Made by a program: the position numbers and the translations under genes | IMG/VR virus record: IMGVR_UViG_3300020450_000062 | Span: 1 to 31,281 of that record | Reading direction: 5' to 3' (one strand) | Length of the DNA stretch: 31,281 bases | Origin: a virus | Shown here: piece after piece, positions 12,515 to 30,330 of the stretch | How the letters are laid out: every line of letters begins with the position of its first letter | Numbering within the stretch: position 1 is the first letter of the stretch | Notes under the pieces: model-generated | Databases searched by the model: none | Seen by the model: only the letters and a program-made list of their open reading frames with translations | What the model was told of the DNA's origin: nothing

Positions 12515-14077
12515 TTAGAATTCCAAAATGATTTTAATGTCTTCTTTTTGTCTAGAGTTTCTTGTAATAGTCGCTCTATTATCAATGTAGATTATATCAC
12601 CTGACCCTTTATTTATTTCAGAAGTAGCAAGTCCATTTGTGAAGTTGATACCTAAATCAACATTTTTTGTTAGAACTGTCGCGATACCTGAGTTAAATGA
12701 TGTGTCAATCGCTGCATTAAATGTTGGTGTGCTCACTTTTTTTGTTGCATCTGATACAAACTCAATAAATTGAGCTTCAGTTCCAAGACCAACAGCGTCA
12801 GTCTGATCCAAATTATTGTCAAAATACAAAGATCTATCTTGAAAATATTTTAAAACTTTTGTATCATTATCATACGATGCAACATAACCAACAGCTGAGA
12901 CAGAACCTTGTGATTGTGATAGTTTTTCACCTACTGTTGGTACTGACGTTGTTGTAGGTGGAAACTTAATTGCTTTTAATGATGAAAATGAATCATTAAA
13001 GAACGTCGATGTGGTTCCAATAGAGGTAGGATTTTTTAATAATGTCACCTGTGCAAATTTAGTATCAATAGGAAAGTCTTTATTATCCCCACCAAATCTT
13101 GCATAACATAATACACGATCAGTTCCTAATTCTTCATAAACATTATGTCCATGTCCTTTAGATGGAGGAATAATAGGTATTAATTTTGCTTTTGTAGAAG
13201 ATTGGTTATTCAAATTTGAAAGATCAACAATTCCGTAGGTGTACCCTTTTCCACCAGAAGAAACAACCGCATTAGTTATCTCACCAGCTGCATTAATATC
13301 AATTACCACTTTTGCACCTGTGCCATCACCTAATATAGGTACCTCAAGTCCTGTTACTTGTTTATAATCTTTTCCGGGATTATCAATATAAACTTTTTTA
13401 ATTTGGTTATTGTTAATATCTGAGTTACCGTTTTCACGAACTGATTGAATTGCAGCATCATTTGTAGTTTCCCAATCATTTGGTACTGATATAAACTCTG
13501 TTGAGTCAAATTTTATAATATCGCTTGGTGAAACAGTATAAAGGAATTTCCAAATATAACCATCTCCACTTTCTCCAGCTCTTGATGGTTCCAAATCTGT
13601 GAATATTGGTTGATCCTGAGACGCATTACCAGTGGTATTGATACCTGATGAACCATTATCTATACAAATATAAACATTAAAATTTTCATTCATTACATAA
13701 TATCTTGCATCATATAATCTAGCAGAGTCAGTGTTTGGTGATTTAAAATTTATGCTGTAATCATGACGATACATTTCATATTTTTGTCCCTGCGTCCAAT
13801 CAACCTTCCTTATTAAACGTCTTATGTTTTTACCTGTAACTCTTTTACCAAATAGAGTTGTATCTCCAATATGGTTATTTGTATTAATATTATCAATTGG
13901 TGCTGGAGTATCATCATCAAAACTACTATCCCTACCAAATCCTGTTGCCTCTGCATTTGGTAGTCCTAGTGTAACATAAAAAGAGTCGGTTGGATCAGCT
14001 CCTCCTATACCTGTAACTGTGTTTACAAAGTTACTAGCATTTAAAATCCTAAACTGATCGGTTACTACTGCTGGCAT
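12515..14077 (-). CDS. 8: Baseplate wedge protein gp8
   Basis: Wedge subunit that joins gp7 and gp10 in T4 baseplates. Similarity to T4 gp8 runs end to end: VTDQFRILNASNF (T4 VTSKFRTEKMLNF), DSFYVTLG, the RKVDW pattern (T4 RRDW), SGDGYIWKFLYTVSP at 170-184 (T4 GDGYVWEYLFEIPP), FAQVTLLKNP (T4 FRQISIITNP), and the C-terminus GDIIYIDNRATITR then DIKIILEF (T4 EMIYMENRPPI then INILFTF). T4 gp8 has 334 residues and this has 520; part of the excess is a repeat insert at about 226-292 with PGKDYKQ and GGKGYTYG. An exact TATAAATA stands 18 nt before the ATG, so gp8 probably begins a late transcript. The giant gene ends 35 nt upstream. Confidence 0.94.
   Translation of the reverse strand: MPAVVTDQFRILNASNFVNTVTGIGGADPTDSFYVTLGLPNAEATGFGRDSSFDDDTPAPIDNINTNNHIGDTTLFGKRVTGKNIRRLIRKVDWTQGQKYEMYRHDYSINFKSPNTDSARLYDARYYVMNENFNVYICIDNGSSGINTTGNASQDQPIFTDLEPSRAGESGDGYIWKFLYTVSPSDIIKFDSTEFISVPNDWETTNDAAIQSVRENGNSDINNNQIKKVYIDNPGKDYKQVTGLEVPILGDGTGAKVVIDINAAGEITNAVVSSGGKGYTYGIVDLSNLNNQSSTKAKLIPIIPPSKGHGHNVYEELGTDRVLCYARFGGDNKDFPIDTKFAQVTLLKNPTSIGTTSTFFNDSFSSLKAIKFPPTTTSVPTVGEKLSQSQGSVSAVGYVASYDNDTKVLKYFQDRSLYFDNNLDQTDAVGLGTEAQFIEFVSDATKKVSTPTFNAAIDTSFNSGIATVLTKNVDLGINFTNGLATSEINKGSGDIIYIDNRATITRNSRQKEDIKIILEF
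12610..12617 (-). promoter_or_regulatory. Possible weak late promoter (AATAAATA) before the 2398-aa gene
   Basis: The minus strand reads AATAAATA inside the 3' end of gp8, about 99 nt before the start of the DUF4815 gene. It differs by one base from TATAAATA but fits the NATAAATA form reported for cyanophage late promoters. A chance match in AT-rich DNA is quite possible. Confidence 0.3.
13202..13402 (-). repeat. GxGY-type repeat insert in gp8
   Basis: Encodes about residues 226-292 of gp8: a KKVYIDNPGKDYKQVTGLEV copy, a GDGTGAKVVIDINAAGEI linker and a VVSSGGKGYTYGIVDL copy. This segment has no counterpart in T4 gp8 as I recall it and carries the same motif as the gp14 array. Confidence 0.75.
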
Positions 14078-14112: not shown

Positions 14113-17100
14113 TCATGGTAGGTCTTTACGCACTGCTCCAGTATCCCTTAAACCAAAAAGTTTTCTTTGAATCGTTGGGAAAGTTGATATCCCAACACCA
14201 GTTGATAAACCAACTGTATAACCTGTTACACCAATTGCCACAGGTTTATCTCTTCCTAATATTGTAGAATCATTTGAAAATCTACCCCATGAGAAAGATC
14301 CCTTTGGAACATTTTGCACCACATTAATAATACCATTCATACCATAATGAGATCCACACTGATAATAGTAGATACCTGCAGGAACACTTGTTGTATTCCA
14401 TGTAAGAGTACCATTCTGTTGCCCATTGTTAGTAACACCAGTATTGTAAGCACCAGTCGCACCATTTCCTAAAGCATCCTTAATATAAAGTGGATGTGCG
14501 TTCATATTATTAGTGAATATTAATGTATCACCTTTTTGGACGGTTAAAGTTGGATTTTGACCTGTTTCTGCACCGTGTCTATCAGTTCCATTTAAAATAT
14601 ATGCTACGTTTGCATTAGCAGTAACAGCAAGATTAAATGTAATAGCACTAGCTGATGCTAGATTTATTCCTACAGTATTGATTCCTGAATGTACATTGGT
14701 AACTATTTCTATACTTGCTCCAGATCCGATTATCTCTTTAACAATGTAAATATTATCAAGGAATAGAGTTCCTATGCCAACTGTATCATTATTATTACCA
14801 CTTTCATTAAGAGAAGTGACTCCATTACCTACAAAAGTATCAAAAATATAAATTGGATATCCAACTTGAAGTGTATCTAAGTTAGCTGATCCATCTCTTG
14901 TAAGTCCAAATTTTAATCCAACAGTGGATACACCAACTGTGAGAGTGCTTATACCTGTAATTGTGCCCTTAAATCCAGATACATCTTTTATACCAGTTAT
15001 TTCTTCTGATAATGGTAGTGGTGATGGAGCAATTACTGCAGGAGGATTAGATATTGTATAACCAAGGCCAATATTATTAACAGCAACTGATGCTATCGAA
15101 CCATTTGTTATGGTTGCAGTTGCAGTTGCATAAGTAGAAACACCAACTTTTGCAAATAATGTATTTGCCACGCCCACAGGAGCTGCAATGTTAACGCTTG
15201 TTGTTGATCCTACGTATCCACTACCACCATCTACGACTGTGATAGCAGAAATTGTACCTGCAGCAGATACAGTTGCTGTCAAAGCAGCAGATACCTGACC
15301 AACATTATTTACTATTTGAGCACCAAATGTATCAATAACCACAGTTGACTCATTTTCTTCATAGTTAAAGAATTGTGCATCATCAACGAATATGTCTGTC
15401 CCACTAGCATTTGAAGTTGATAAGTCACCAATTATTCTTGCAGTTGGGAAGATTAACGGTTCAATTGAATCTCTAGACTTTGAAACAACTTTACCTCTTA
15501 TTATCTTATCAATTTTTTGTTTTCTCCAGTTAACAATAGGTCTAAATGTATTTGGATCAATTCCTCCACCTGTATATAAGTCAGTTTCAAAAGTATCTGA
15601 TGTGGTAATACCAACAATTGTTCTCTCAGTTTGTGGTAGCACACCTCCACCTCTTCCAACCTCAACTACATCACCCTCTTTCAATGTGGCATTTACATCT
15701 ACAATATTTGTATCAACCCCATCAGTACCCTTATAGAAAAATACAGAAACATCATCACCATCATCTGGTGGAACTTCAAATCCAAACGTAGTGCCTCCTT
15801 CAAAATTATATGCTACACCGGGTTCTTGCAATACTCCATTAATGAATATTAATAGCAAGTTTTCCATTTTTATTAATGATGAGTCTATGTTTGAATTATT
15901 AATTTCAAAACTTAAAAATTCACCATTTAATTTTATAGGAAATCTTTTTCTAACACCGTCAATGAATGGAGTGATGGGATCAATAAAATCAAACTCACCA
16001 AAGTCCCAAGATGCAAAATTATCTGTAAATATCTCAGTAACAGTTAATTCAAAGTCACTTACTTTAGTTGATAATCCTCTTTCAGTAACTAAACCAACAG
16101 GTCTTATCACATCACCTTTTTTAAATCCAAATCCAGTGCTTGCTATTTTGAATGAACTTACTTGATGTAAGGTTGAACCTATACCCGTAGTCGGAGCAGC
16201 ATCAACATCAACTGTTAATTTTAAACCAAATCCTGTTGTAGTCGTTGGGCCTATACCTAATCTAGAAACACCAATTACATCTAAATTTTCATATGTAGGA
16301 GATTCAACATCAATTTGTGGATTAACATATCCAGTACCACCACTCACAACTGTAAATGCCAATGTTCCACCAGCACCAACGGTTGCTGTGATATTTGCAC
16401 CAGTTCCACCACCTCCACCGGGATGAACATCAATTGTAATTGTATTAGTTGTCACTGCAGTAATTGCTGTCTGAATACCTGCGATTGGATCTGGTAAACC
16501 AGTTGTTTTTGAAACTGCACGAGGATATGGATGAAGTGTTGCAAAATGATCCTTAGAGCAACTAAAAACAATACCACCAGTATCAATACCGACTGTATCA
16601 CTTGTTGTTAAACCATGATTTGGAATAGTAAGAACTAAAATACCGGTATGGGATGTGTATACTGCATTTGTTGCAGTAAATGCTTGACTTCCTGCTCCAG
16701 AAAATGCTGCTTTCTTAATTGAACCAATACCTGAACTTACAAATCTATGCTCATATGCAACGTCAGTTACACCGACTGCAACAGTTCCTCTGTATCCGGA
16801 ACCGAGTATATCACTTGTGCTAAGTCCAACAGATGTGATTGTACCATTAGCATTTTTCAATGCGGTTACAGCAGCACCTACAAGAGGAGCAACACCAAGA
16901 CCACCTGTGGATCCTAATGATACTATCATTCCACCTCTAGGTAGTTGATTTAAATTAACATCAGTTTCACTTACAATTCTTTGTCCATTTGTTGATGTTA
17001 TACCAGTAAATGTTATAGTTGTAATACCAGCTGTAGTGTCACCAGTAAAATCGTAATTATTACCTTGATTATTTGATGTGGTAGGTGTTTGGAATATACC

Positions 17101-20100
17101 ATTCAATAATACGATACTACCACCAGTTTGAATACCAGTTGCATTTGTACCAACAACTTTCATTAAATGTGTAGCACCTACTCCTGTAAATCCATCAGAA
17201 ATATCATCAAAAATTCTATTTTTTTCATAACTTTGTCTAAAATATACTCTTCCATGAAAATCTGACCTTGGAATGATTGAGTTAGATGAATCTCTTTCTG
17301 TAATATTGGAACCTTTTGGTGGATCTGTAAAATGTATCTTACTATCTACGATATTAAATGATCCTTTAAATTTTCTAACTGTAGTGTTGTCATTATGTGA
17401 TGCTGCAATCGTTCCTAATGATCCTCTTTGAACACCGACTAATTTAAAAGATCCAGTTCCAGTAATTGGGCCAACTGCAAGTGTTCCTAGACCAACAGCA
17501 GTAACTTTTAAAAATTCATCATCAATTTTTAATACATCACCCGTAGTGATAGAAGATAATCCAGCAATACTTGCAAAAGCATCAGTGGCAGATATACTTC
17601 CTCCATTATTTGATAATGTAGTATTAATTGGTGTAAATGCAATAGGAGATTGTATTAACCCATCAATAACTATTAAACTCTTTTCAAGTTTTTTAGTCAT
17701 TTCTAATTGATGTGCATTACCTGCACCAAGTGAGGTGAATGTTACAGCAGTTCCTGCATTTGCATTTGATAAAGAAGTTGCTAATCTAAATTTGTCAGAG
17801 TTATCTCTTATTACAAAAACATCAGTGGGTAAATCAGTTCCCGGTGCAGTTTCCATAGAATCTGCGGTCACTCCAATAAATGTACTCTTTGGAGTATATT
17901 TTAATTTTTCACCAGTATTGAAGAAATGTTCTTTTATTAAAAACTCACCAGTAGCTGCAACAACAATATTAGTATCAGCTGGATTAAATGTTTTTGCAAA
18001 AATTGGAATATCATTATGTTTTAAATCAAATTCAGTTTTATTTGACCTATTACCATTTACAGCATTATATAATGTTACCCCTACATTTTCAGTTACACGA
18101 CCATAAACAAAATCTGGTGGTGTATTAAATAAATCTAAATCAGTGTAAAATACTTCACTATAAGATGATACTTCTGCATTAGTAACTCCGGTATCAGGAT
18201 TAAATCTTAAATTAAATTTATTATTTGCAAAGTTTGCAACAAATGTACCTATACCAGCTGTGCTTCCAATAGAGATGAATGGATAATGAACAACAGAGGT
18301 ATCTGTACCATTATGAGTGGCTAAAACTTGATGCATTGCAATGGTTGATCCAACTGCAACTTTAACTATACTTTTTATAGTACTAAATTTATTTGAATCT
18401 ACACCAACAATAGTTGAAGTACTACTTACTCTCTTAAATGAGGATTGCAAATTAACTGTTCTTTCATTTCCTGCAGATTGAGCAGCATCTTTGAATCTAA
18501 ATGTGCCTATACCAGCAGTTGTGGTTCCAAAACCCACTACCTTAGATCTTAATGTGGCAGTGTTGATTCCTGTATTCTCAAAATCAATTGATAAAACACC
18601 TGAACTCAAATTAGATGTAAATGTACCTATAAAATTATTTGAAAAATTATCTAATGATCCAGAGTCAGCATAATATTCAGAGAAGTAAGAATTTGTTCCG
18701 TCATGAGTAGCGTATAAGTCAACCACATTTTTTTCATTAGTTACATTATCAGTAACCTCAACTGTTGCATAAAATGCCGATGTTACACCAACTTGACCAT
18801 TAATCAAAGATATTGTGGTTGATGGGTCTGCAGTTTTTGCTACACCAACAAGATTAACAAATCCGATGGAATTAGTATTAATTCCTGCTGTGGTGCTATT
18901 GAATCTACTTCTATAAATTTTGATGTCTAAATCATCATCAAATATATTTGTAGGAGTTATCCGTAAGAAGGTATTGCTTGTTGATGAATCTGCTACACCT
19001 TCAAAATCAACAATCGTTTGAGTTCCTATTCCTAATTGGTTTTTCTCAAAGGTAAATGTATCCGTATTATCTCTATAAATGACTAATTCATTTACCTGAA
19101 TTTCATTTGTTGATGGATTTTCTGTTTGTATAACAAAACTTTCATAGTCAACAAGAATTGGAACATCAACTTTTCCACTTAATGTGCTATTGGTGTTTGA
19201 AAATAAATCACTAAAATCATCAATATCGAGAACTCTGTTAGTCAAACATTGAATAAAATCAGATAATTTTGTACTTTGTAATCTTAAAAATTTAGATTGT
19301 GTTAATCCAATATTATCAGTATCTACAACAAAATCAAAATTATTAATAGTATCTACTCGTTCTTCATTTATAATATCCCTTCCTATTACTAAATTAGATA
19401 TAGAACTAATTCCTGATTTAGATTTTGACGTTATAACTGTATCAGAAAAGTTTTTTAATCCTGAAGTATGAACCAATCTATTCACAGGATCATTTATTTC
19501 TTCAAATGTTTGTGAACTTTGAATCGTATATGCTAAATTTTGATAATAATCATTATCCGCAAGCACCTGATAATCTTCACTTAATTTACCAATCTCAGTA
19601 TTCCATCCTTGTTCTTTTTCAAGTGAATAATCGATATTAAATCTTCCTCGGTTATTATTAAGAGTATTAATTGTTGCTACTGTTCCAGTGATTTCACCTC
19701 TTATAATATCACCAACTTTTAATTTTTTAGATCCAAATACCTTAATAAAATCATCAGGATTATTTTCTAATACTGTCAAATCTTCTAATACAAATCTATC
19801 ATTAAATTTAACACCTAATCTCTCACCCACTCTAAATTGAGATGATTTTTGGATAGATCTAAATTGTGGATACTTATTAAAGTTTATTATGGTTGCATAA
19901 TTTGTTTGTGATGTTTTTGCGATGCCAACAGCTGTAGATAAACCTGCTAGACTAAATTCTAATTTAGCTGGACTTGTATTTTGATAATCAGTAATTTCAA
20001 AGAAGTCATATCCATAATCAGTTGAGTTATATCCAGATCCTATTAAATCACCATTAGCATCAGGATGTAACTGTATTCCCTCCACAAATATCTTATCACC

Positions 20101-23100
20101 AACAGCAAATGGTGCAGGATTAAACCCACCTATGGGAGTTACTAAAATGCATGTAACTATACCTGTTGATGTTGAATTTGCCATTCCAACAACAGTGTTT
20201 ACATTTATGCCATTTGAATTATTGATTGTTCTTATTCTTTGCTCAACTGGTTTTAATCCCTTTGGTGTACTAAAAATTTGAACTGAAGATATAGAACTAG
20301 AAGTCAAACTTAATTCTATTACTCCTTGATCAGTTAATAATCCTGTTTCAGAATCTACTACAACTAAATCCGGTACAGAAAGATAATCTTGACCTCCAGA
20401 TAATATCTCTATATCAGATACAATATCAGAATTTATTAAAGTTATTGTAGGTGATATTCTAGCCTCTGGTCTTAATGTTTTATCTGAGTGATATTCAAAA
20501 CCGGGGTCTAATATTCTTACTTTTTTTATTTTATTAATAGATTGTGATAATGCTAAAACTTTTGAGTTAACACCAGACGCTGTTGTGACACTAGAAATAC
20601 CGGGAAATTTTTTATATCCAAAACCACCAGATGCCAAATTAAGTGCTCCTATACCACCCACAGCATTTAAAGAACTTGTCTTATAAGACAAATTATCAGT
20701 ATTACTTTGTGTATATGTTAATTTTTCAGGTATTTTTCTTAATGAAATATTAAATGATGTAGAACCAATACCAAATATTGGATATGAACCTTCATACTCA
20801 CTATCAATATAGTTAATTTTATTTCCATCTTTTACATCAACATCTGATGTGCTTATAAATCCAGATTTATCAAAAGCATAAAAAAGATTTACAGGGTTGT
20901 TTGAATTATAATTTAATATAATTGTACCACCGGCACCAATAACTCCTTGTTGTGTAACAGCAAAATTAGTTGTTGAACCACCAGAAACAAATTCATTTTT
21001 AAATTCTGAGTCATAATAAAATTTTAAATCTAAACCAGATAAAGATGAGTCTCCAACATAAAAAACAAGATCATCATTATTTACAATTGATAATGGTGGA
21101 TTAATTAGAGATAATTCTTGACCAGATCCTCCAGTATTTGTTTGTATTCCAATTATTCTTGGTGGTTCATTAATTACATCATACCTTGTTTCACCTAGCT
21201 GAAAAGAATCATCATCTATTCTATAAATGTAATAAGATCTCTGTGAAGATAATCCTGTAGCTACAGCACCACTTGTTATATCATAGTAAACTTTTTGACC
21301 TGTTACAAATCCATGATCATCTTTGAAAATTCTATTAGTACCTATATTAGATTGAACTAATGACATGGGATTTATCAAAAGTTTATCTTCTACAGAGGAG
21401 TATTTAACTATAACTGATGTGCTCACACCTGTCCCACCTGATCTGTTAGAATCAAGAGTTAAATCTATAATTTCTGAGTTAGAAAGACCATGAGCAGTTG
21501 TAAGAGTTACTTTACTAATGATTTTTTCTACTTTACCTAATACTTGTGTGTAATTTGTCTCTAATGAATATTCAAAACTATCTGTTGGTGAATTTTTGAA
21601 GAAAATAGTTTCCTCACCTCTGATTGTGGATAATCCAACTAAATCATTAGAAATTCTTTTAGCAAAGACAGTTGTGCCATCTGTTAAATTAAAACTAGCT
21701 GCAACGGCTTGTGTTACACCAGTACCAACTGATAACGCACCTACACCGGTTGGAATTTTTAATGTTAATTGTTGATTATTAGTAAAAGGATGATTTGGTA
21801 AGAAAATACTTTTAGCAGGAACACTAATTACTTTTGATAATTCACCAGTTGTAAATGATTTAGCCATAGAAACAACTGTTCCTGCAGTCAATGCTAAACC
21901 AACTTGTTCTTTAGGATTGAAAAATACTTTTTCATTTATTTTTGAATTAAATGGATCTGTCTTAAATTCAATTGTAAATTTATGTGGAACTGTTGATACT
22001 ATATCTGACAATGCATGTCCACTACCACCTACAATACCTCTTCTAACTCTTAATATTTTTCTATCATCAAATTTATTAATAACCTGTAATTTTTCAGTTC
22101 CTATTCCAATACTACTTCCAATTGATATACTTTCAGGAATTGATGAAACATAAATGTCTGTAACAACACCTGCTGTAGCGTTTGCACCTAAGGCTTTGTA
22201 TAATACAACTGATTCAGATGATACACCAACTTTAAAAGAATCGGTTAAATGAGGGATACTTGTCGTTAATCCTGATATTGCAATCTGATCATTTTGTATA
22301 AAATTATGTGATGTTGATATAAATCCACTAACTTGAGTAGCACTATCTCTGACAAATACTACATCATCATATGTTTGAACAGTTGTATTAACATTCAGAA
22401 TTGGTTTACCAGTAACCTTAGAAACAAATGCACTAGCACCTCCTCCAGAGGTGTTACTATTATCAAATGTAAGACTATCTTTTACTTTGAATCCACTACC
22501 AGACTCCACTATTTGAAATCCTTCAACATTTCCCTCTGTAACCGATTCAATGATCGCACTTTGTTCTATAATTTCATTTGATTCTGAAATAAAATCATTA
22601 TCAGAATCTGGATCAGATACTTTGTATGGGAGTGTATTTCTTATTAAATTATTTGAATTTAAATCAAAATTATTTTGATCTATTAAAAAATTATCCTCAA
22701 TAGGTGTTGATCTATAAGTATCTCCTATAAAATAAGGAAACTTAGGTTCTAATAATCCAGATAATGCAGTTGAAACACCAACAAAATAAGCATAAACACC
22801 ATTTGGATACTCAGGTGTTTTACAAAATCTTCCATTACTTTTATCTAAATCACCAGATTCATTAAAAATAAAATCTTCAACAAAAAATCCATCAGTAAAT
22901 AATGTTGATGCTGGTCTATTTGTCACGCCAGATGTATTTAATTGATAACTAGTGTCTATTATTTTTATTGATGAATTTATATCATCAGGATCAGAATAAC
23001 CATAAGGGCCATAAATTGGATTACCATCGTATGCCCAACCTACTATTGGTGAGTGTCCATTTACTGGATTAGGATCAGAAAAGGGTGATGATAACAATGA

Positions 23101-26100
23101 TGTATTATATCCAACAACTGCATATTGAAGGTTAGTATCAGATTCTTTTAAAAGTATCTCATCATCAAATCTTTCTAAATTATTTACTGTTAATGATCGA
23201 ACTGATGGTTTAAATATTAATCCAATTCCAGCTGGTTTTACCAATACTGTTGGAGATTCAGTATAACCAATTCCCGGATTTATTATTTTTACATCGGTTA
23301 TTTTTCCATTAGTAACAACTGGTCTTAATTTTGCACCTATACCTGATCCAACACCTACAAATTCTAAATCAGGTGGTGAAAAATACTCTTTACCACCAAA
23401 TCTTACATCAGCTGTGATAATTTTACCTTTTGATGCAACAACTTTTATCTCTGCATCCTTACCATTTTTTACAATAACACCCGGATCTTTTTCAAAATTT
23501 AAAATATCAGATCCATAATTTGTTCCAGATTCATACAAATAAGTATTAAGAACTGAACCTCTAACTACAGGTGTCAATACAAGATCATCAGATCTTGTTA
23601 AAGTTGTAGGTGAATAAACTGCTTGAACATTAACTGTGATTTCAGGATAGAAAAATTCCTGTAATCCTGAACCAAAACTTGTAAATCTAACATAGTTTTT
23701 TCGAGTAAAATTACTATTGTCAGATCCATCGGCACCTGCATTTGCTAATCTAAAGGTATTATTATCTAATTTAATGATATAGTATTGATTACTATTAGAT
23801 AATCCACTTATGGTTGTACCACCAGATGCAAAATCATACTTTATGATCTCTCCAGTTTCAAAACCATGATTTTTAAATGTAACAGTATTCTCTATTGTTG
23901 ATATTCCTACTGGTTTGACAAATAATTTTCTATTTGTATAATTTACACCTTTATTTTTTATAACAACTGATTTTAGGTAATTTTTTTGATTAAAAAATCT
24001 AAATTTGTGAACACCTTGATTATTAACTGTGGTGAATCCAACTGTGTTGATACCTGCGTTAAAATCATTGATTGTAGCAAATAACTTTACTGAAGTAATA
24101 CCAACTACCTTTGGATAATAAACAGACCCATCAGCAAGAAATACACCCTGATCAATGTTATTACCTGACGAGTCAGTTGCAATACCTATGGATGGAAATC
24201 CATCATTATCATAAACCAAAGGCTCTCCATCTTTAAGATTATGGGGTTTAGTAAATATAATTTGATCATTGAATATGTCTAATCCACCATTTTTAGTTGA
24301 TAGTCTACCGTCAAATGACAATTCTCTGAATCTTCTACCAACAACAGGTTCAATAATCGCATCTGCACCATTTCCTCCAGTTAAAGAAACAGATAAAATT
24401 CTTTCAATATCAAAATCTTGTTGATCAACTAATATTTCACTTAAAGTTCCTTTTATTACAGGTCTTACCAAAGCAGTGACTCCTGATCCTACTTGAGGTA
24501 GAGTAATATCAGGTAAATTTATAACATCATAATTTGATCCACCATTTAAAACTTTTACTTCATCTAATGGCCCAAAGTAAATCTTGTCAAGTGACTTGTA
24601 ATTTACTATTTCAACTCCATTTATAAGAATACCAGTTGCACCGGGATTCGTGATAGAACCAATTCCTGATTTTATATTGGGTACAGCAGGAAATTTCTTT
24701 AATATTTTTTGAACACCAATATTTTCATTTTTATGTCTTAATAATACAAAACTATGACTACCTGCTCCATCAAATTTAAATTCTAAAAAATCTGAAATTG
24801 GAATAAATGATCTTGATGCATATAATCTAATTTTCTTATTAGTAAGTCTCTCAACATAATATACATCCTCTGTGAGACCATCCATTAAGTTATTTGATGC
24901 CTTGTAAAATATAGCATCACCAGTTCTAAATTCATGTGGATTAGGAAATGCAATAATTGAAAATTTCTGTGTTAAATTGCTAAATCCTTGTAATTCATCA
25001 GGATCATTACCTGTAAGAATGCTCTTTGAAACAGTTTCAGTAATATCATATGATGGTAATGAAGATGATGCTACATAATAATTTTCTTCATCTTGATTAT
25101 AAGTATTTTGAACATTTGCAGTAATTACATTATTACCAAATTGTAATTGTGAAACTGAACTGAAAGCCCTATCCAATTTTCTACGTAAACTATATTCTTC
25201 ATCTTTATCAATATTAAAACTATTATTAAGATCTATTTTTAATGTACCATCACTTTGATTAGTAATATTGGTTACTGCCACTCCTGAAAGAACTACTTGT
25301 TGTGCACCACCCCTTTTAATAATATCTGCTTTATCATTAATTTTTAAGTTAGATTTATCTACATCTGAATTAAAAAATACAACACTAGTATTAGTTGAAA
25401 CACCTACTTTATTAATATGAAATGAACTAGATGTATTATAAATCCAAGAATTAAAAAATACTTCTTTTGGTGTATTATCAATTATCGGATTTTCAATTAC
25501 TTCACCTAAGTTTTTAACTGTAATTCTTTCACCTTCTGTAGTAACACTAGATCCCGTAGATGCTAGTAACTCAAAATTGGATAATACACCTGTAATTCTT
25601 AATTCTACCTTTTTATTGATATCACCATTTTCATAACCAAATACAAATTCATCAGATCTTATATCATCTGTTGTTGAGATGGCAGATATAATTCCTGTGC
25701 AATTTAAAAATTGATTTAATGTTTTGTCACCATAAGTTATTGTGTTTATACCTGATACTACTGTACCAGTTGTACCAAATCCTACAGTAGAATCTACAGT
25801 AATTACAGACGAACCAACCGATACATTACCAATAACTTTAGATTTTCCGGGTATGGTAAAAACTCCATTAATACCACTTCTATCATTGTATCCAACAAAT
25901 AAACTTATTTTATAGTAAGTTTTTCTATCTCTTGTTACAATTTCTACTTCAGATACAGATGCATTTGTTTGTGAATCATTTGATTTAGTGATTGTTTGTC
26001 CTACTAATTTATTAGGATCACCACTAAGAACCTCAGTTAAGATGATTTCCCTACGAACATACTCTGCACCAGATGGTTTTATTAAAAACTCCTCAGTATC

Positions 26101-26775
26101 AATTATTTTAGGTGTAATTCCGTATAAAACATTAAACAAAATACGGAAAGACTCTGCAGTTCCTTTAGATTGATATAATGATTTAGACTCTTTTATAAAA
26201 TTACTTACATCTATATTTGGTATAAATTTAGTATCCTCTAGACCCGGAGTAAAGGTTGACTTTACTTTTTTATAAAATTCTTGTAAAAAAAGTACACTTA
26301 AGTTGTTAACAGGTGCATTTATATTATGATCGGCAGCTGTTGTATTTGAAAATATTAATTCACCCGGATTGTTTGGATCTCTATATGATGTAATACCACT
26401 AAAACCTCTAATACATCCTGTGAAACTATTAGTCGTAATACCAGTATATGTAATTACCTCATCATCTATTTTTAAAAGACCATACTCATTAGGAAATCCT
26501 TTAGTTGATGATACTGTGATTGTATCAGTTGTAGTTGTCAAACCTGCTGTAAGTGTTGTTACACCAACTATTACTTCAGGTGTTAAATTATCTAATTTAA
26601 TATATTGATCTAAATTATCACTTAAATCTATTACACCTCCACGATGTTCCTGTGAGATGTAATATTGTTTTAGAAAATCAACTGTCTTTGGACTCTCTGA
26701 GAGTATAAACTCAGGAAGTTGACTTTCTATAACTTGTTGGACTTGTATACGTTTTTCGATTCCAGTTCCTATCAT
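14113..26775 (-). CDS. 7: Giant gp7-like baseplate wedge protein with repeat modules and cupredoxin-like C-terminus (4220 aa)
   Basis: A single 12.7-kb ORF between gp6 and gp8, the place of gene 7 in T4. Residues about 10-280 resemble the C-terminal part of T4 gp7: YQSKGTAESFRILFNVLY (201-218; T4 YSTKGIEASYKFLFKVLY), then KLVGQTI (256-262; T4 DLVGQTI). T4 gp7 has about 1032 residues, so some 3900 residues here are extension. They include at least nine H-[GNEPF]-[FL]-x-x-G-D type modules, many GxGYxxxPxV repeats, three E-x-[IL]-x-Y ... RG modules (near 80-150, 1575 and 3090), a YHYH-like domain (about 1225-1360) and a cupredoxin-like domain (about 4050-4158). It starts 1 nt after gp6 with an AGG seven bases before the ATG. 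A wedge role is inferred from position and the N-terminal match; the extension probably projects from the baseplate. Confidence 0.85.
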   Translation of the reverse strand: MIGTGIEKRIQVQQVIESQLPEFILSESPKTVDFLKQYYISQEHRGGVIDLSDNLDQYIKLDNLTPEVIVGVTTLTAGLTTTTDTITVSSTKGFPNEYGLLKIDDEVITYTGITTNSFTGCIRGFSGITSYRDPNNPGELIFSNTTAADHNINAPVNNLSVLFLQEFYKKVKSTFTPGLEDTKFIPNIDVSNFIKESKSLYQSKGTAESFRILFNVLYGITPKIIDTEEFLIKPSGAEYVRREIILTEVLSGDPNKLVGQTITKSNDSQTNASVSEVEIVTRDRKTYYKISLFVGYNDRSGINGVFTIPGKSKVIGNVSVGSSVITVDSTVGFGTTGTVVSGINTITYGDKTLNQFLNCTGIISAISTTDDIRSDEFVFGYENGDINKKVELRITGVLSNFELLASTGSSVTTEGERITVKNLGEVIENPIIDNTPKEVFFNSWIYNTSSSFHINKVGVSTNTSVVFFNSDVDKSNLKINDKADIIKRGGAQQVVLSGVAVTNITNQSDGTLKIDLNNSFNIDKDEEYSLRRKLDRAFSSVSQLQFGNNVITANVQNTYNQDEENYYVASSSLPSYDITETVSKSILTGNDPDELQGFSNLTQKFSIIAFPNPHEFRTGDAIFYKASNNLMDGLTEDVYYVERLTNKKIRLYASRSFIPISDFLEFKFDGAGSHSFVLLRHKNENIGVQKILKKFPAVPNIKSGIGSITNPGATGILINGVEIVNYKSLDKIYFGPLDEVKVLNGGSNYDVINLPDITLPQVGSGVTALVRPVIKGTLSEILVDQQDFDIERILSVSLTGGNGADAIIEPVVGRRFRELSFDGRLSTKNGGLDIFNDQIIFTKPHNLKDGEPLVYDNDGFPSIGIATDSSGNNIDQGVFLADGSVYYPKVVGITSVKLFATINDFNAGINTVGFTTVNNQGVHKFRFFNQKNYLKSVVIKNKGVNYTNRKLFVKPVGISTIENTVTFKNHGFETGEIIKYDFASGGTTISGLSNSNQYYIIKLDNNTFRLANAGADGSDNSNFTRKNYVRFTSFGSGLQEFFYPEITVNVQAVYSPTTLTRSDDLVLTPVVRGSVLNTYLYESGTNYGSDILNFEKDPGVIVKNGKDAEIKVVASKGKIITADVRFGGKEYFSPPDLEFVGVGSGIGAKLRPVVTNGKITDVKIINPGIGYTESPTVLVKPAGIGLIFKPSVRSLTVNNLERFDDEILLKESDTNLQYAVVGYNTSLLSSPFSDPNPVNGHSPIVGWAYDGNPIYGPYGYSDPDDINSSIKIIDTSYQLNTSGVTNRPASTLFTDGFFVEDFIFNESGDLDKSNGRFCKTPEYPNGVYAYFVGVSTALSGLLEPKFPYFIGDTYRSTPIEDNFLIDQNNFDLNSNNLIRNTLPYKVSDPDSDNDFISESNEIIEQSAIIESVTEGNVEGFQIVESGSGFKVKDSLTFDNSNTSGGGASAFVSKVTGKPILNVNTTVQTYDDVVFVRDSATQVSGFISTSHNFIQNDQIAISGLTTSIPHLTDSFKVGVSSESVVLYKALGANATAGVVTDIYVSSIPESISIGSSIGIGTEKLQVINKFDDRKILRVRRGIVGGSGHALSDIVSTVPHKFTIEFKTDPFNSKINEKVFFNPKEQVGLALTAGTVVSMAKSFTTGELSKVISVPAKSIFLPNHPFTNNQQLTLKIPTGVGALSVGTGVTQAVAASFNLTDGTTVFAKRISNDLVGLSTIRGEETIFFKNSPTDSFEYSLETNYTQVLGKVEKIISKVTLTTAHGLSNSEIIDLTLDSNRSGGTGVSTSVIVKYSSVEDKLLINPMSLVQSNIGTNRIFKDDHGFVTGQKVYYDITSGAVATGLSSQRSYYIYRIDDDSFQLGETRYDVINEPPRIIGIQTNTGGSGQELSLINPPLSIVNNDDLVFYVGDSSLSGLDLKFYYDSEFKNEFVSGGSTTNFAVTQQGVIGAGGTIILNYNSNNPVNLFYAFDKSGFISTSDVDVKDGNKINYIDSEYEGSYPIFGIGSTSFNISLRKIPEKLTYTQSNTDNLSYKTSSLNAVGGIGALNLASGGFGYKKFPGISSVTTASGVNSKVLALSQSINKIKKVRILDPGFEYHSDKTLRPEARISPTITLINSDIVSDIEILSGGQDYLSVPDLVVVDSETGLLTDQGVIELSLTSSSISSVQIFSTPKGLKPVEQRIRTINNSNGINVNTVVGMANSTSTGIVTCILVTPIGGFNPAPFAVGDKIFVEGIQLHPDANGDLIGSGYNSTDYGYDFFEITDYQNTSPAKLEFSLAGLSTAVGIAKTSQTNYATIINFNKYPQFRSIQKSSQFRVGERLGVKFNDRFVLEDLTVLENNPDDFIKVFGSKKLKVGDIIRGEITGTVATINTLNNNRGRFNIDYSLEKEQGWNTEIGKLSEDYQVLADNDYYQNLAYTIQSSQTFEEINDPVNRLVHTSGLKNFSDTVITSKSKSGISSISNLVIGRDIINEERVDTINNFDFVVDTDNIGLTQSKFLRLQSTKLSDFIQCLTNRVLDIDDFSDLFSNTNSTLSGKVDVPILVDYESFVIQTENPSTNEIQVNELVIYRDNTDTFTFEKNQLGIGTQTIVDFEGVADSSTSNTFLRITPTNIFDDDLDIKIYRSRFNSTTAGINTNSIGFVNLVGVAKTADPSTTISLINGQVGVTSAFYATVEVTDNVTNEKNVVDLYATHDGTNSYFSEYYADSGSLDNFSNNFIGTFTSNLSSGVLSIDFENTGINTATLRSKVVGFGTTTAGIGTFRFKDAAQSAGNERTVNLQSSFKRVSSTSTIVGVDSNKFSTIKSIVKVAVGSTIAMHQVLATHNGTDTSVVHYPFISIGSTAGIGTFVANFANNKFNLRFNPDTGVTNAEVSSYSEVFYTDLDLFNTPPDFVYGRVTENVGVTLYNAVNGNRSNKTEFDLKHNDIPIFAKTFNPADTNIVVAATGEFLIKEHFFNTGEKLKYTPKSTFIGVTADSMETAPGTDLPTDVFVIRDNSDKFRLATSLSNANAGTAVTFTSLGAGNAHQLEMTKKLEKSLIVIDGLIQSPIAFTPINTTLSNNGGSISATDAFASIAGLSSITTGDVLKIDDEFLKVTAVGLGTLAVGPITGTGSFKLVGVQRGSLGTIAASHNDNTTVRKFKGSFNIVDSKIHFTDPPKGSNITERDSSNSIIPRSDFHGRVYFRQSYEKNRIFDDISDGFTGVGATHLMKVVGTNATGIQTGGSIVLLNGIFQTPTTSNNQGNNYDFTGDTTAGITTITFTGITSTNGQRIVSETDVNLNQLPRGGMIVSLGSTGGLGVAPLVGAAVTALKNANGTITSVGLSTSDILGSGYRGTVAVGVTDVAYEHRFVSSGIGSIKKAAFSGAGSQAFTATNAVYTSHTGILVLTIPNHGLTTSDTVGIDTGGIVFSCSKDHFATLHPYPRAVSKTTGLPDPIAGIQTAITAVTTNTITIDVHPGGGGGTGANITATVGAGGTLAFTVVSGGTGYVNPQIDVESPTYENLDVIGVSRLGIGPTTTTGFGLKLTVDVDAAPTTGIGSTLHQVSSFKIASTGFGFKKGDVIRPVGLVTERGLSTKVSDFELTVTEIFTDNFASWDFGEFDFIDPITPFIDGVRKRFPIKLNGEFLSFEINNSNIDSSLIKMENLLLIFINGVLQEPGVAYNFEGGTTFGFEVPPDDGDDVSVFFYKGTDGVDTNIVDVNATLKEGDVVEVGRGGGVLPQTERTIVGITTSDTFETDLYTGGGIDPNTFRPIVNWRKQKIDKIIRGKVVSKSRDSIEPLIFPTARIIGDLSTSNASGTDIFVDDAQFFNYEENESTVVIDTFGAQIVNNVGQVSAALTATVSAAGTISAITVVDGGSGYVGSTTSVNIAAPVGVANTLFAKVGVSTYATATATITNGSIASVAVNNIGLGYTISNPPAVIAPSPLPLSEEITGIKDVSGFKGTITGISTLTVGVSTVGLKFGLTRDGSANLDTLQVGYPIYIFDTFVGNGVTSLNESGNNNDTVGIGTLFLDNIYIVKEIIGSGASIEIVTNVHSGINTVGINLASASAITFNLAVTANANVAYILNGTDRHGAETGQNPTLTVQKGDTLIFTNNMNAHPLYIKDALGNGATGAYNTGVTNNGQQNGTLTWNTTSVPAGIYYYQCGSHYGMNGIINVVQNVPKGSFSWGRFSNDSTILGRDKPVAIGVTGYTVGLSTGVGISTFPTIQRKLFGLRDTGAVRKDLP
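14302..14628 (-). other. Cupredoxin-like (type-1 copper) domain at the C-terminus of the giant protein
   Basis: Encodes about residues 4050-4158. The segment reads PTLTVQKGDTLIFTNN, then NAHPLYIKD, then PAGIYYYQCGSHYGMNGIINV, the usual order of a plastocyanin/pseudoazurin-like fold. Candidate copper ligands are His4094, Cys4140, His4143 and Met4146. The C-x2-H-x2-M spacing is shorter than the C-x2-H-x4-M of plastocyanin and pseudoazurin, so the axial Met is uncertain. Copper binding is inference. Confidence 0.8.
22696..23103 (-). other. Degenerate YHYH-like domain inside the giant protein
   Basis: Encodes about residues 1225-1360. The core GWAYDGNPIYGPYGYSD (1246-1262) and the later LDKSNGRF (1310-1317) with PNGVYAYFVG (1324-1333) match the YHYH family layout (GWALDGFPIYGP, then D-x-x-NG, then DG-x-YHYH). 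The signature YHYH is replaced by Tyr1328-Ala-Tyr-Phe1331, so both histidines are lost. The function of YHYH domains is not established; here a purely structural role is plausible. Confidence 0.75.
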
Positions 26776-26776
26776 T

Positions 26777-28699
26777 TTATGACCTGTTTAGTTCTCCGTT
26801 AGAGTAGGATGATGTTACTTTATAACCAACACCAGAAATTTGTTCACCAGATGTAATAGTGTCTTTCACCATATTTATGGAACTACTGGGGATGTTAAAA
26901 TCTAAGTATAAATCCTGTAAACCTATGACATCATTTGATTCTGGGAATGCTTGCACCTCAACAACATTATTTGGTTTCTCAGTTTCCGTTATATTAATCG
27001 TAGTCAGATTAACCTCTCCATGAATGTAATCAACTGTTCCAGCAGACTTAACCACAATAACATTAGTTCCAGTTACTAAATCTTTTCTGACTACTGATAT
27101 GACACCAGTTAATTGATCCTCGTTAGGTGTATCAGTTATATACACAGTCTCATTTGTGCCTTGAATTTTAAATCCTGTGCTTTTAATATTTAATCCACCA
27201 GGCTTTACATTAAACTGATTACCAAAACATAACTCATATTGAGCAAATTTATTAATCAAGGCATTCAAATTTCTTCGTATTTTTACTCTTGTAATATTAG
27301 ATGTTATTGATCTATCTATGTTATCAATTACATTTAATACTTTACTATACTTAAATCTTCCACCAAACCTATTTACATCACCTGATTTTGAGTAAGTTGT
27401 TAATGCTCCAGTGATCTTCGTCCTTAAATCATTTACATTTTCAACAGATGTTGAATTGTAGTAAATAAATGATTCAATCTCAACAAATAAAACTTGTAGA
27501 TCTACAATTTTTTGATTGATTCCAGTTAATGAATAATTCTTTAACTTTTGTAGAATTTGTGTTTTATCAAAATCAGATACAAAATCACCATTCTTTGGTT
27601 TAATTGTGATGAAAACCGTACCAAATTGAGGCGGATCTAACTCTTCACCACCCACGACTGATACACTTTCTGTGTTAGGATATACAGTCTGTATAATTGA
27701 TTCATAATCTCTTGCTGTAACTGCTCTATACTGTGCTGAATAAAGTCTTGGAGCAAAGTATTTAACTGAATCAAGGGATTCTATATTTCCCCCATTAGAG
27801 GCACGTTGAATAGTATCTACGATTGGTGTGGATGTAGGGACTACAACATTCACTTTAGACTCATCTTTAGTTATTTCATCTTTATCCGCAAAACTACCTG
27901 CAAATGTAAATACTTCCGGCCCATTTCCATCTTCACCTGAAGTAATAATATATTGAACTGTTATTTGCTCTCCATTTTGTAATTTTCTTCCAAATACACC
28001 ATCTCCAAATAATATCTCATACTTTTCATCTTGTATCTCTTGTATAAGGTAAGTTTCTGATATTGATGTAACATTCACAATATTATCAACTAATTTATAT
28101 TGTTTTCCTAAACCATCCTCATCTGCATGCTTAACATAAACAACAATCGATGATGTATCGATTGATGAATTATCAAGTATGAATCTTTGCTCTAATGATC
28201 CATCTACAACAAATGTAGTCCTTAGATATGTACCCTCCAAGACATTAATTGGATCTTCAACAGTCCCAAATTGAGCAAAACCATTATTAACAGTTGTGGT
28301 GATACTCTCAGATATGGAGAATACAAAATCAGTGTCGTCCTCTGTGCCTACACACACTATACCGGGTTGTAGGGTTAATGTAGGACTACTGGTAGTGGTT
28401 GCAACCTGAAACTTAATTGATGCTCTGGCTGCCGTTTTAGAGCGTGGTACATACCCTATGTTCCTTGCAAGTGATACTACATTCTCTCTTAATGTTGCAG
28501 AGTCAAGGAATGACTCATTTACCACGAGATTTGAGTTAAATGCAGAAATATATGTATTATATGCAAGGGTATCAATCAATACAGAGAAGTTTGACCCTTC
28601 AAAATCAAAGTCTGTAAAGTTAGAATTTGCTCTCAGATAAGATTTTATCTGCTCTCTTATCTGATCAAAGTCTAAATTGGTGAATTTTGTAAATGGCAT
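26777..28699 (-). CDS. 6: Baseplate wedge protein gp6
   Basis: Core wedge protein; in T4, gp6 dimers form the continuous inner ring of the baseplate. The N-terminal 100 residues match T4 gp6 closely: FTDFDFEGSNFSVLIDTLAY (28-47; T4 LDYDFEGSRLNVLCDLLAYN), NESFLDSATLRENVV (61-75; T4 YESFMRTANLRSSVV) and NIGYVPRSKTAA (80-91; T4 NGYLPTSKSAA). Further on there are ILFGDGVFGRKLQNG, SGEDGNG and AVTARDYESII (T4 CVTATDYDTFV), as expected for the J-type baseplate fold. The length of 640 compares with 660 in T4. The ATG shares a base with the gp25 stop (TAATG), and the giant gp7-like gene follows after 1 nt, so gp25, gp6 and the giant form one coupled unit. Confidence 0.96.
   Translation of the reverse strand: MPFTKFTNLDFDQIREQIKSYLRANSNFTDFDFEGSNFSVLIDTLAYNTYISAFNSNLVVNESFLDSATLRENVVSLARNIGYVPRSKTAARASIKFQVATTTSSPTLTLQPGIVCVGTEDDTDFVFSISESITTTVNNGFAQFGTVEDPINVLEGTYLRTTFVVDGSLEQRFILDNSSIDTSSIVVYVKHADEDGLGKQYKLVDNIVNVTSISETYLIQEIQDEKYEILFGDGVFGRKLQNGEQITVQYIITSGEDGNGPEVFTFAGSFADKDEITKDESKVNVVVPTSTPIVDTIQRASNGGNIESLDSVKYFAPRLYSAQYRAVTARDYESIIQTVYPNTESVSVVGGEELDPPQFGTVFITIKPKNGDFVSDFDKTQILQKLKNYSLTGINQKIVDLQVLFVEIESFIYYNSTSVENVNDLRTKITGALTTYSKSGDVNRFGGRFKYSKVLNVIDNIDRSITSNITRVKIRRNLNALINKFAQYELCFGNQFNVKPGGLNIKSTGFKIQGTNETVYITDTPNEDQLTGVISVVRKDLVTGTNVIVVKSAGTVDYIHGEVNLTTINITETEKPNNVVEVQAFPESNDVIGLQDLYLDFNIPSSSINMVKDTITSGEQISGVGYKVTSSYSNGELNRS
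26872..26879 (-). promoter_or_regulatory. Possible weak late promoter (CATAAATA) before the giant gene
   Basis: The minus strand reads CATAAATA within the 3' end of gp6, about 97 nt before the giant gene's ATG. It fits NATAAATA but not the full T4 consensus, and chance is possible. The distance is almost the same as for the box before the other giant gene. Confidence 0.3.
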
Positions 28700-29130: not shown

Positions 29131-29481
29131 CTATCTTGCCAACTCGTTCATATTATAATCATCAGAATCAAAATAATTAAGGATCCACCATGCTAATGAA
29201 CGTGGATTTTTAGTACCACAAGTGAAAATATCGAATGCAACACACTGTTTTTCAGGCCATGTATGCAAAGCAAAGTGACTTTCAGCAAGTGTTACGTTCA
29301 CAGTGACCCCTTGAGGTTCAAATTCATGAACAAAACAATTTAAAAGTGAATATTTTTCAGTTTTAACTGCACTTACCATCTTATTTGCGATTTCAGTCGC
29401 ATTATTTAACTTTTCAAAGGGCACATTGTACACTTCGACAAATAAATGAGTGCCCATATGAGCATTTTTCACGTTTTTCAT
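29131..29481 (-). CDS. speD: S-adenosylmethionine decarboxylase proenzyme
   Basis: Auxiliary metabolic gene. The enzyme decarboxylates S-adenosylmethionine to supply the aminopropyl group for spermidine synthesis. It belongs to the short prokaryotic class (116 aa here, family about 115-130). The self-cleavage site is LAESHFALHTWPE (65-77): cleavage between Glu67 and Ser68 would make the pyruvoyl group on Ser68. His73 and Cys88 in FDIFTCGT (83-90) are the expected processing and catalytic residues, and the earlier FEPQGVTVNVTL strand is typical. All key residues are intact, so the enzyme is probably active. Its ATG overlaps the stop of the 46-aa ORF (ATGA). speD is known in T4-like cyanophages; here it sits directly before gp25 and is likely expressed late. 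Confidence 0.96.
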   Translation of the reverse strand: MKNVKNAHMGTHLFVEVYNVPFEKLNNATEIANKMVSAVKTEKYSLLNCFVHEFEPQGVTVNVTLAESHFALHTWPEKQCVAFDIFTCGTKNPRSLAWWILNYFDSDDYNMNELAR

Positions 29482-29637: not shown

Positions 29638-29645
29638 TATTTATC
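29638..29645 (-). promoter_or_regulatory. Probable late promoter variant GATAAATA upstream of the 46-aa ORF and speD
   Basis: The minus strand reads GATAAATA across the stop codon of the 229-aa gene, 19 nt before the 46-aa ORF start. The spacing matches the exact TATAAATA boxes before gp8 and gp25. One base differs from the T4 consensus, but it fits NATAAATA. Confidence 0.5.
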
Positions 29646-30330
29646 CTAATTCTGGTTCAATATTGATCTCAACATTGCCAGATTTACGTTCTTTTGCAGT
29701 TTTCCAGAAATAATTCTCCTCTGAACCCAATCCGTCACGATCATGACCGTTCTCTACCTGATAATACACGGTTGAAACCTTAAAATCAGGTGTCTTAGGT
29801 GTCTCAGGAGTGATACTGTTGTCATAAATCCTCATTCTGTTGTTTGGATAGAGGCAAAACTGTCCATTATCCAATTCTAAGAGGTTATGAGACTTATGTT
29901 CAGCTGGTTGTTCACTTGTTGAGTAGTCGATTGCGTCTACACTCTCGTGATAATTGTCTAAAGTACAAATATATGTGCCTGTTTGGTTGCCAAAGTCCCT
30001 TGTCATCACTTCATAATGCATTGAACCGATAAATTGCTTCTGAACAGCAACCACACCATAGTCCATACAGTTCCAAAACTGTAAATTATGCAGTGTCATG
30101 TCCGGTGTAGGAGTCTCTGGGTCGGTTGTAAACGCAGAAATCGGTAATTTATCGAACATTGCAGCATATTCTGGTAAATATGTCTCAAAATAAAATGCTC
30201 TTCCGGGTATTGACTTGGCAGATACCCAGACTCCCTTTACAAATTCACCATGACCACTCTTATGATCGGTCAAATATTCCTTTCTCACCCATACTTCATA
30301 AGATGGTAGGTTTGCAATTAGTGTACTCAT
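29641..30330 (-). CDS. Conserved-looking phage protein of unknown function (229 aa)
   Basis: I do not recognise a domain. The protein is soluble-looking, without signal peptide or membrane segments, rich in aromatic residues (NLQFWNCMDYGVVAV, FYFETYLPEYAAMF) and has a Pro-Glu-Thr rich stretch near residue 176 (ITPETPKTPDFKVS) that looks like a linker. The C-terminal part contains VENGHDRDGLGSEENYFWK and an acidic tail. The N-terminal EVWVRKEYLTDHKSGHGEFV is distinctive enough for a search. Its ATG overlaps the stop of the preceding 55-57-aa ORF (ATGA), with no good ribosome-binding site of its own, so it depends on coupling. It is not an obvious virion protein; position alone (next to speD and baseplate genes) does not settle its role. 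Confidence 0.75.
   Translation of the reverse strand: MSTLIANLPSYEVWVRKEYLTDHKSGHGEFVKGVWVSAKSIPGRAFYFETYLPEYAAMFDKLPISAFTTDPETPTPDMTLHNLQFWNCMDYGVVAVQKQFIGSMHYEVMTRDFGNQTGTYICTLDNYHESVDAIDYSTSEQPAEHKSHNLLELDNGQFCLYPNNRMRIYDNSITPETPKTPDFKVSTVYYQVENGHDRDGLGSEENYFWKTAKERKSGNVEINIEPELG

Follow-up and report, generated by a model that had tools for sequence, protein, structure and literature searches.

A predicted cupredoxin module with a candidate copper site inserted in the giant baseplate protein gp7 of a marine T4-like cyanophage

Introduction

Cyanophages rank among the most abundant viruses of the ocean, and to our knowledge no function has been assigned to most of their tail proteins. In the open-access literature without preprints, for the most part in its titles and abstracts, we found no description of a cupredoxin, plastocyanin or copper-binding domain on phage virions. 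The closest described systems include copper proteins of cells; those of the blue copper type typically have an Asn following the first His ligand. Amicyanin, a blue copper protein of PF00127, carries electrons as a free protein in the periplasm and has HN at the first ligand and a C-x2-H-x2-M ligand loop. The profile of the phage domain analyzed here matches it over most of the domain (E about 1e-4) and the loop is of the same form, but the phage domain has HP instead of HN and is part of a virion protein. Plastocyanin belongs to the same superfamily and uses the same four ligand types (profile E of 4.4e-6 to 2plt), although its loop, C-x2-H-x4-M in the 2plt alignment, is two residues longer than that of the phage domain. 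Copper nitrite reductases contain cupredoxins as enzyme domains (6hbe, 9cck, 2dv6), and the stretches YICSIHPYMKGIIRV and YICTLHPWMKGTISV of 6hbe and 9cck have a loop identical to that of the phage family, while both align with only part of the phage profile.

Among phages, a plastocyanin gene, petE, is present in P-SSM2 (PSSM2_230) as a separate small gene, apart from the tail copies. The tail family PHROG 677 (baseplate wedge tail fiber connector, the gp9/10 of cyanophages) is without cupredoxin annotation; its C-terminal ~100 positions correspond to the domain described here, with 35 of its 35 members matching, but the copy that we analyzed sits in gp7 instead.

Results and Discussion

Carrier gene and genomic context

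The window, that is, the whole stretch of DNA analyzed, is a virus record of 31,281 bases, in which three baseplate genes are relevant to the domain:

12515-14077, minus strand: gp8-like baseplate wedge protein (PF09215, E 5e-11; PHROG 438)
14113-26775, minus strand: gp7-type giant baseplate wedge protein of 4,220 amino acids (PHROG 2885 baseplate wedge, E 0; gp6 and gp8 as neighbors; orthologue in P-SSM2)
26777-28699, minus strand: gp6-like baseplate wedge protein (PF21379, E 7e-17; PHROG 219; 61% identity to Synechococcus phage S-SRM01)

The order around the giant protein is T4-like (gp25, gp6, giant protein, gp8), the nearest relatives of the window gp6 are those of the Synechococcus phages S-SRM01 and ACG-2014f, and the P-SSM2 orthologue of the giant protein is annotated as gp7 baseplate wedge initiator. 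The giant protein thus resembles T4 gp7 both in lying between gp6 and gp8 and in its homology to an annotated gp7, and because of this gene order, these relatives and this orthologue it can be assigned to gp7 of a T4-like cyanophage. The original prediction had placed the domain on a phage baseplate protein, which agrees with this position and with the gp7 annotation in P-SSM2. Over its 4,220 residues, the protein contains only 7 Cys and 13 Met.

The same giant protein contains a YHYH domain (PF14240, E 1.5e-25; 22771-23061, minus strand; amino acids 1239-1335). YHYH has been predicted to be a tail-associated metal-dependent hydrolase (PMC7824862) and is among the domains catalogued in the structural operons of pelagimyophages and cyanophages (PMC7029224). 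PHROG 460 (head closure Hc2) matches parts of the gp14-like protein (27-1703), the gp8-like protein (12515-14077) and gp7 (14113-26775, minus strand), so a small module seems to be common to neck and baseplate proteins. The baseplate genes are adjoined by an S-adenosylmethionine decarboxylase gene (speD) and a PHROG 3704 "ferredoxin" gene (29131-29481 and 29641-30330, minus strand).

Domain boundaries and ligands

The domain, its predicted ligands and the region that follows it are located as follows:

14317-14640, minus strand: cupredoxin-like domain, about amino acids 4046-4153 (profile match 14320-14640; AF2 pLDDT of 95 for amino acids 4044-4162; profile matches to PDB)
14494-14496, minus strand: His4094, first predicted copper ligand, just before model strand 53-56, in the motif HPL (sequence, conservation, model)
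14356-14358, minus strand: Cys4140, predicted copper thiolate ligand, last residue of model strand 91-97 (sequence, conservation, model)
14347-14349, minus strand: His4143, second predicted His ligand, C-x2-H (sequence, conservation)
14338-14340, minus strand: Met4146, predicted axial ligand, C-x2-H-x2-M (sequence, conservation)
14116-14301, minus strand: conserved gp7 C-terminal tail, amino acids 4159-4220 (~62 residues), after the insertion (aligned with six domain-less orthologues)

The cupredoxin domain is an insertion in the C-terminal part of gp7. In six gp7 orthologues (P-SSM2, S-SRM01, ACG-2014f, S-T4, Sf-CH8 and AG-345-F15) both flanks align and the domain is skipped, the skipped stretch being of ~115 residues, and the only gp7 relatives with the domain among the sequences compared are the metagenomic L001 and L002. 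The location given originally, the last ~110 residues of the protein, is inexact, since about 62 conserved tail residues come after the domain. That the domain forms the C-terminus of gp7 is ruled out by this tail, which aligns across orthologues. A model of the gp7 C-terminal region, built with three sequences, reached a pLDDT of 26 and was set aside.

The four residues named in the original prediction are exactly where it had put them in the translation of 14113-26775. The motif C-x2-H-x2-M occurs a single time in the 4,220 residues, and it was absent from the 208,341 amino acids of carrier proteins searched outside the domain. At the first His, the HPL of the window corresponds to HPF in most relatives.

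Predicted fold

Searched alone against PDB, the window sequence gave marginal matches (best E 0.0018, to plastocyanin). With a profile of 35 phage relatives the best match was plastocyanin 2plt, followed by copper nitrite reductase, amicyanin and rusticyanin, and the ligand columns of the profile coincide with the ligands in the 2plt alignment. Because the 35-row profile finds copper proteins in PDB with the ligand columns aligned to those of 2plt, the resemblance to blue-copper proteins exceeds chance. Against PF00127 (Copper-bind), the window scored 20.6 bits (E 6e-4), just below the curated cut-off of 21.2, and a P-SSM2 relative scored 23.3 bits.

The AF2 model of amino acids 4044-4162, built on a 46-row alignment, is all-beta with nine strands (pTM 0.88). 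The predicted ligands are model residues 51, 97, 100 and 103, and the strands near them are 41-47, 53-56, 91-97 and 104-110; residue 51 lies just ahead of strand 53-56, residue 97 ends strand 91-97, and residues 100 and 103 are in the loop preceding strand 104-110. This is the layout of type-1 sites, with a His near strand 4, the Cys ending the penultimate strand and the His and Met in the next loop, so that the predicted ligands have a blue-copper arrangement in the model. The model also agrees with the Greek-key beta-sandwich of the cupredoxin superfamily, to which all 50 Foldseek matches listed from PDB belong, with a probability of 1.00 and E values from 8.6e-6 to 8e-5, 2dv6 being the best. 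Solved cupredoxins superpose loosely on the model (TMq 0.38-0.55 and rmsd 4.7-9 A among the matches listed), and predicted phage proteins, from the search of predicted viral proteins, superpose tightly (TMq 0.86, rmsd 1.0 A). The cupredoxin layout read originally from the letters alone is therefore borne out by a confident structure prediction in which the ligands take blue-copper positions, although the superpositions are loose.

As to the spacing of the loop, the original prediction was right that it differs from that of plastocyanin, and none of 72 representatives below 70% identity has the x4 spacing (C-x2-H-x4-M). The spacing is nevertheless not odd, since it is found in copper nitrite reductase domains and in amicyanin; an abnormal ligand spacing was rejected on the basis of 6hbe and 9cck, which share C-x2-H-x2-M.

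Conservation of the ligands

The 35-row alignment has a mean column identity of 35%, its rows other than L001 and L002 being 24-49% identical to the query, and no column in it is invariant except those of the four ligands. The set H-C-H-M is intact in 203 of 215 distinct near-complete copies and in 66 of the 72 representatives, for which the median column conservation is 46%; among the positions that come next in conservation in the representatives are one Gly and two Tyr, together with the Pro that directly follows the first His in 67/72. The 12 exceptions among the 215 comprise seven copies ending before the ligand loop, two A---, one TS--, one HTSR and one HCHQ, and partial ligand loss, leaving out matches that stop before the loop, amounts to 5 of 208 distinct copies. 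In the degenerate copies L177, L178, L152, L097 and L099, some or all ligands are gone or changed, and an intact copy is present in the same loci. L099 is the HCHQ copy, with Gln as the predicted axial ligand, in a stellacyanin-like manner.

Circular permutation accounts for at least part of the copies that end before the ligand loop. S-CAM1 (L032, AOV57849) codes for a circularly permuted cupredoxin, with profile positions 68-107 ahead of 2-85, whose pieces jointly retain all four ligands in a protein that also has a subtilase domain, and L113 has two circularly permuted units.

Selection on a metal site accounts for this pattern better than selection on a bare scaffold would. As the ligands are near universal in the phage copies and are kept in secreted bacterial relatives, retained metal binding is likely, though predicted, and the original argument for kept metal binding over pure scaffold use gains from the four invariant columns and the intact set in most distinct copies.

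Distribution among phages

The gp9-type query matched 345 phage records, nearly all cyanophages and many of them near-identical isolates (as listed, 270 Synechococcus, 50 "Cyanophage," 19 Prochlorococcus, 4 marine virus, 1 Pelagibacter and 1 uncultured); for scale, gp6 matched 373 Synechococcus and 61 "Cyanophage" records. The subtilase-type query gave 47 matches, one of them an Actinomycetia phage. Most marine cyanophages have relatives of the domain on their tail proteins. The carriers are proteins with a T4 gp9/10 N-domain, in which the cupredoxin domain is at the C-terminus, subtilases (S8), fibers with an endosialidase chaperone (S74), a YHYH protein, collagen fibers and podovirus fiber-like proteins. 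Carrier types are intermixed in a tree of 68 domains, with few forks resolved, and the gp7 copy (represented by L002) groups with subtilase-type copies. The domain thus looks like a mobile module not confined to gp7. It also appears dispensable for T4-like cyanophages, because S-SRM01, ACG-2014f and S-T4 gave no copy at an E value of 1e-3.

Cellular relatives

In one gammaproteobacterial order, 9 of 200 genomes match the profile at an E value of 1e-8 or better. Most of these matches are small proteins, whose N-termini resemble signal peptides and whose C-termini are of the GFE type; HPF and C-x2-H-x2-M are kept in all 13 distinct sequences collected from gammaproteobacterial genomes. The secreted proteins (L281, L282, L287-L295) belong to the same subfamily as the phage domain, but they are mostly small, single-domain and apparently secreted, and not virion proteins. 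A Pfam scan of three of the small proteins (one L281, two L282) gave no match at an E value of 0.01. A subtilase-type protein with a cupredoxin domain was seen on contig C5 of the MAG TMED78 (L280/L284); L280, one of the 13, is probably of phage origin, its DNA having the look of a phage contig that was binned with this gammaproteobacterial MAG. No relatives were found among 151 genomes from the phylum to which genome G010 belongs, nor did an 8-mer scan of genome contigs with the subtilase-type consensus find any, a result of little weight because bacterial relatives turned up later.

Proposed role and alternatives

We consider it probable, with considerable room for doubt, that the domain is a virion-surface adhesion or assembly module stabilized by a predicted type-1-like copper ion. 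A mobile cupredoxin module would have entered the gp7 of this marine T4-like cyanophage, in the C-terminal part of that protein, and the two His, the Cys and the Met of the module would most likely form together one type-1-like copper site. Cyanobacteria hold their cytosol nearly copper-free, and since virions assemble there, the site would take up its copper from the medium, once the cell has lysed. The module would most likely give baseplate and tail-fiber proteins an additional folded unit at the surface, which may contact the host envelope or neighboring tail parts, while the metal would lock the ligand loop and stabilize the fold. The sequence, gene context, insertion, spread of the module, ligand conservation and predicted fold are backed by the computations; copper as the metal, its time of loading, the surface exposure and the adhesion or assembly role we infer, the adhesion role purely from the company that the domain keeps. 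Counting against this reading are the loose Foldseek fits to solved cupredoxins, the Pro after the first His and the absence from some cyanophages. For two roles suggested in the original prediction, attachment to an outer-membrane protein that binds copper and sensing of the periplasm, the analysis gave no support.

The domain could instead be a metal-free beta-sandwich for protein or glycan binding, with the ligands kept for folding or through recent ancestry. Cupredoxin folds without metal exist, as in ephrins, and ligands are missing from a few copies (L177, L178, L152, L097), but we regard this as unlikely, given that in so divergent a family the invariant columns are those of the four ligands, that part of the set is missing in so few copies once loop-less matches are set aside, and that the circularly permuted form retains all four. 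The same retention of the full set across diverse carriers could point to a redox, electron-transfer or redox-sensing center on the tail that acts upon contact with the host envelope, as could the profile relatives, which are electron-transfer cupredoxins and copper nitrite reductases, and the single HCHQ variant, an axial Gln being a known type-1 variant in stellacyanins. The carriers share nothing redox, however, no partner oxidoreductase is linked to the domain and some close relatives lack it, so such a center seems quite improbable. Another metal, such as Zn, bound as a purely structural ion is more doubtful still: the identity of the metal is not fixed by sequence alone and apo cupredoxins can take up Zn, but both the ligand pattern, a Cys-His-Met loop with a distant His, and the kinship with copper proteins favor copper.

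Implications

The spread of the domain over cyanophage tail proteins, nearly always with the four predicted ligands, suggests that cyanophage particles carry a copper site that seems not to have been described before. A domain name is gained for tail proteins currently labeled hypothetical, tail fiber or connector, and a recurrent copper-type site on baseplate and fibers would be a virion metal cofactor new to the open-access literature searched. A bolder proposal, to which we give little credence, is that genuine type-1 sites exist on the virion surface of most T4-like cyanophages of the sea and of some podoviruses, and that the copper occupancy of these sites, or the redox state of the copper, governs adsorption or the firing of the baseplate; if true, this control would tie infection to the copper chemistry of seawater or of the cell surface.
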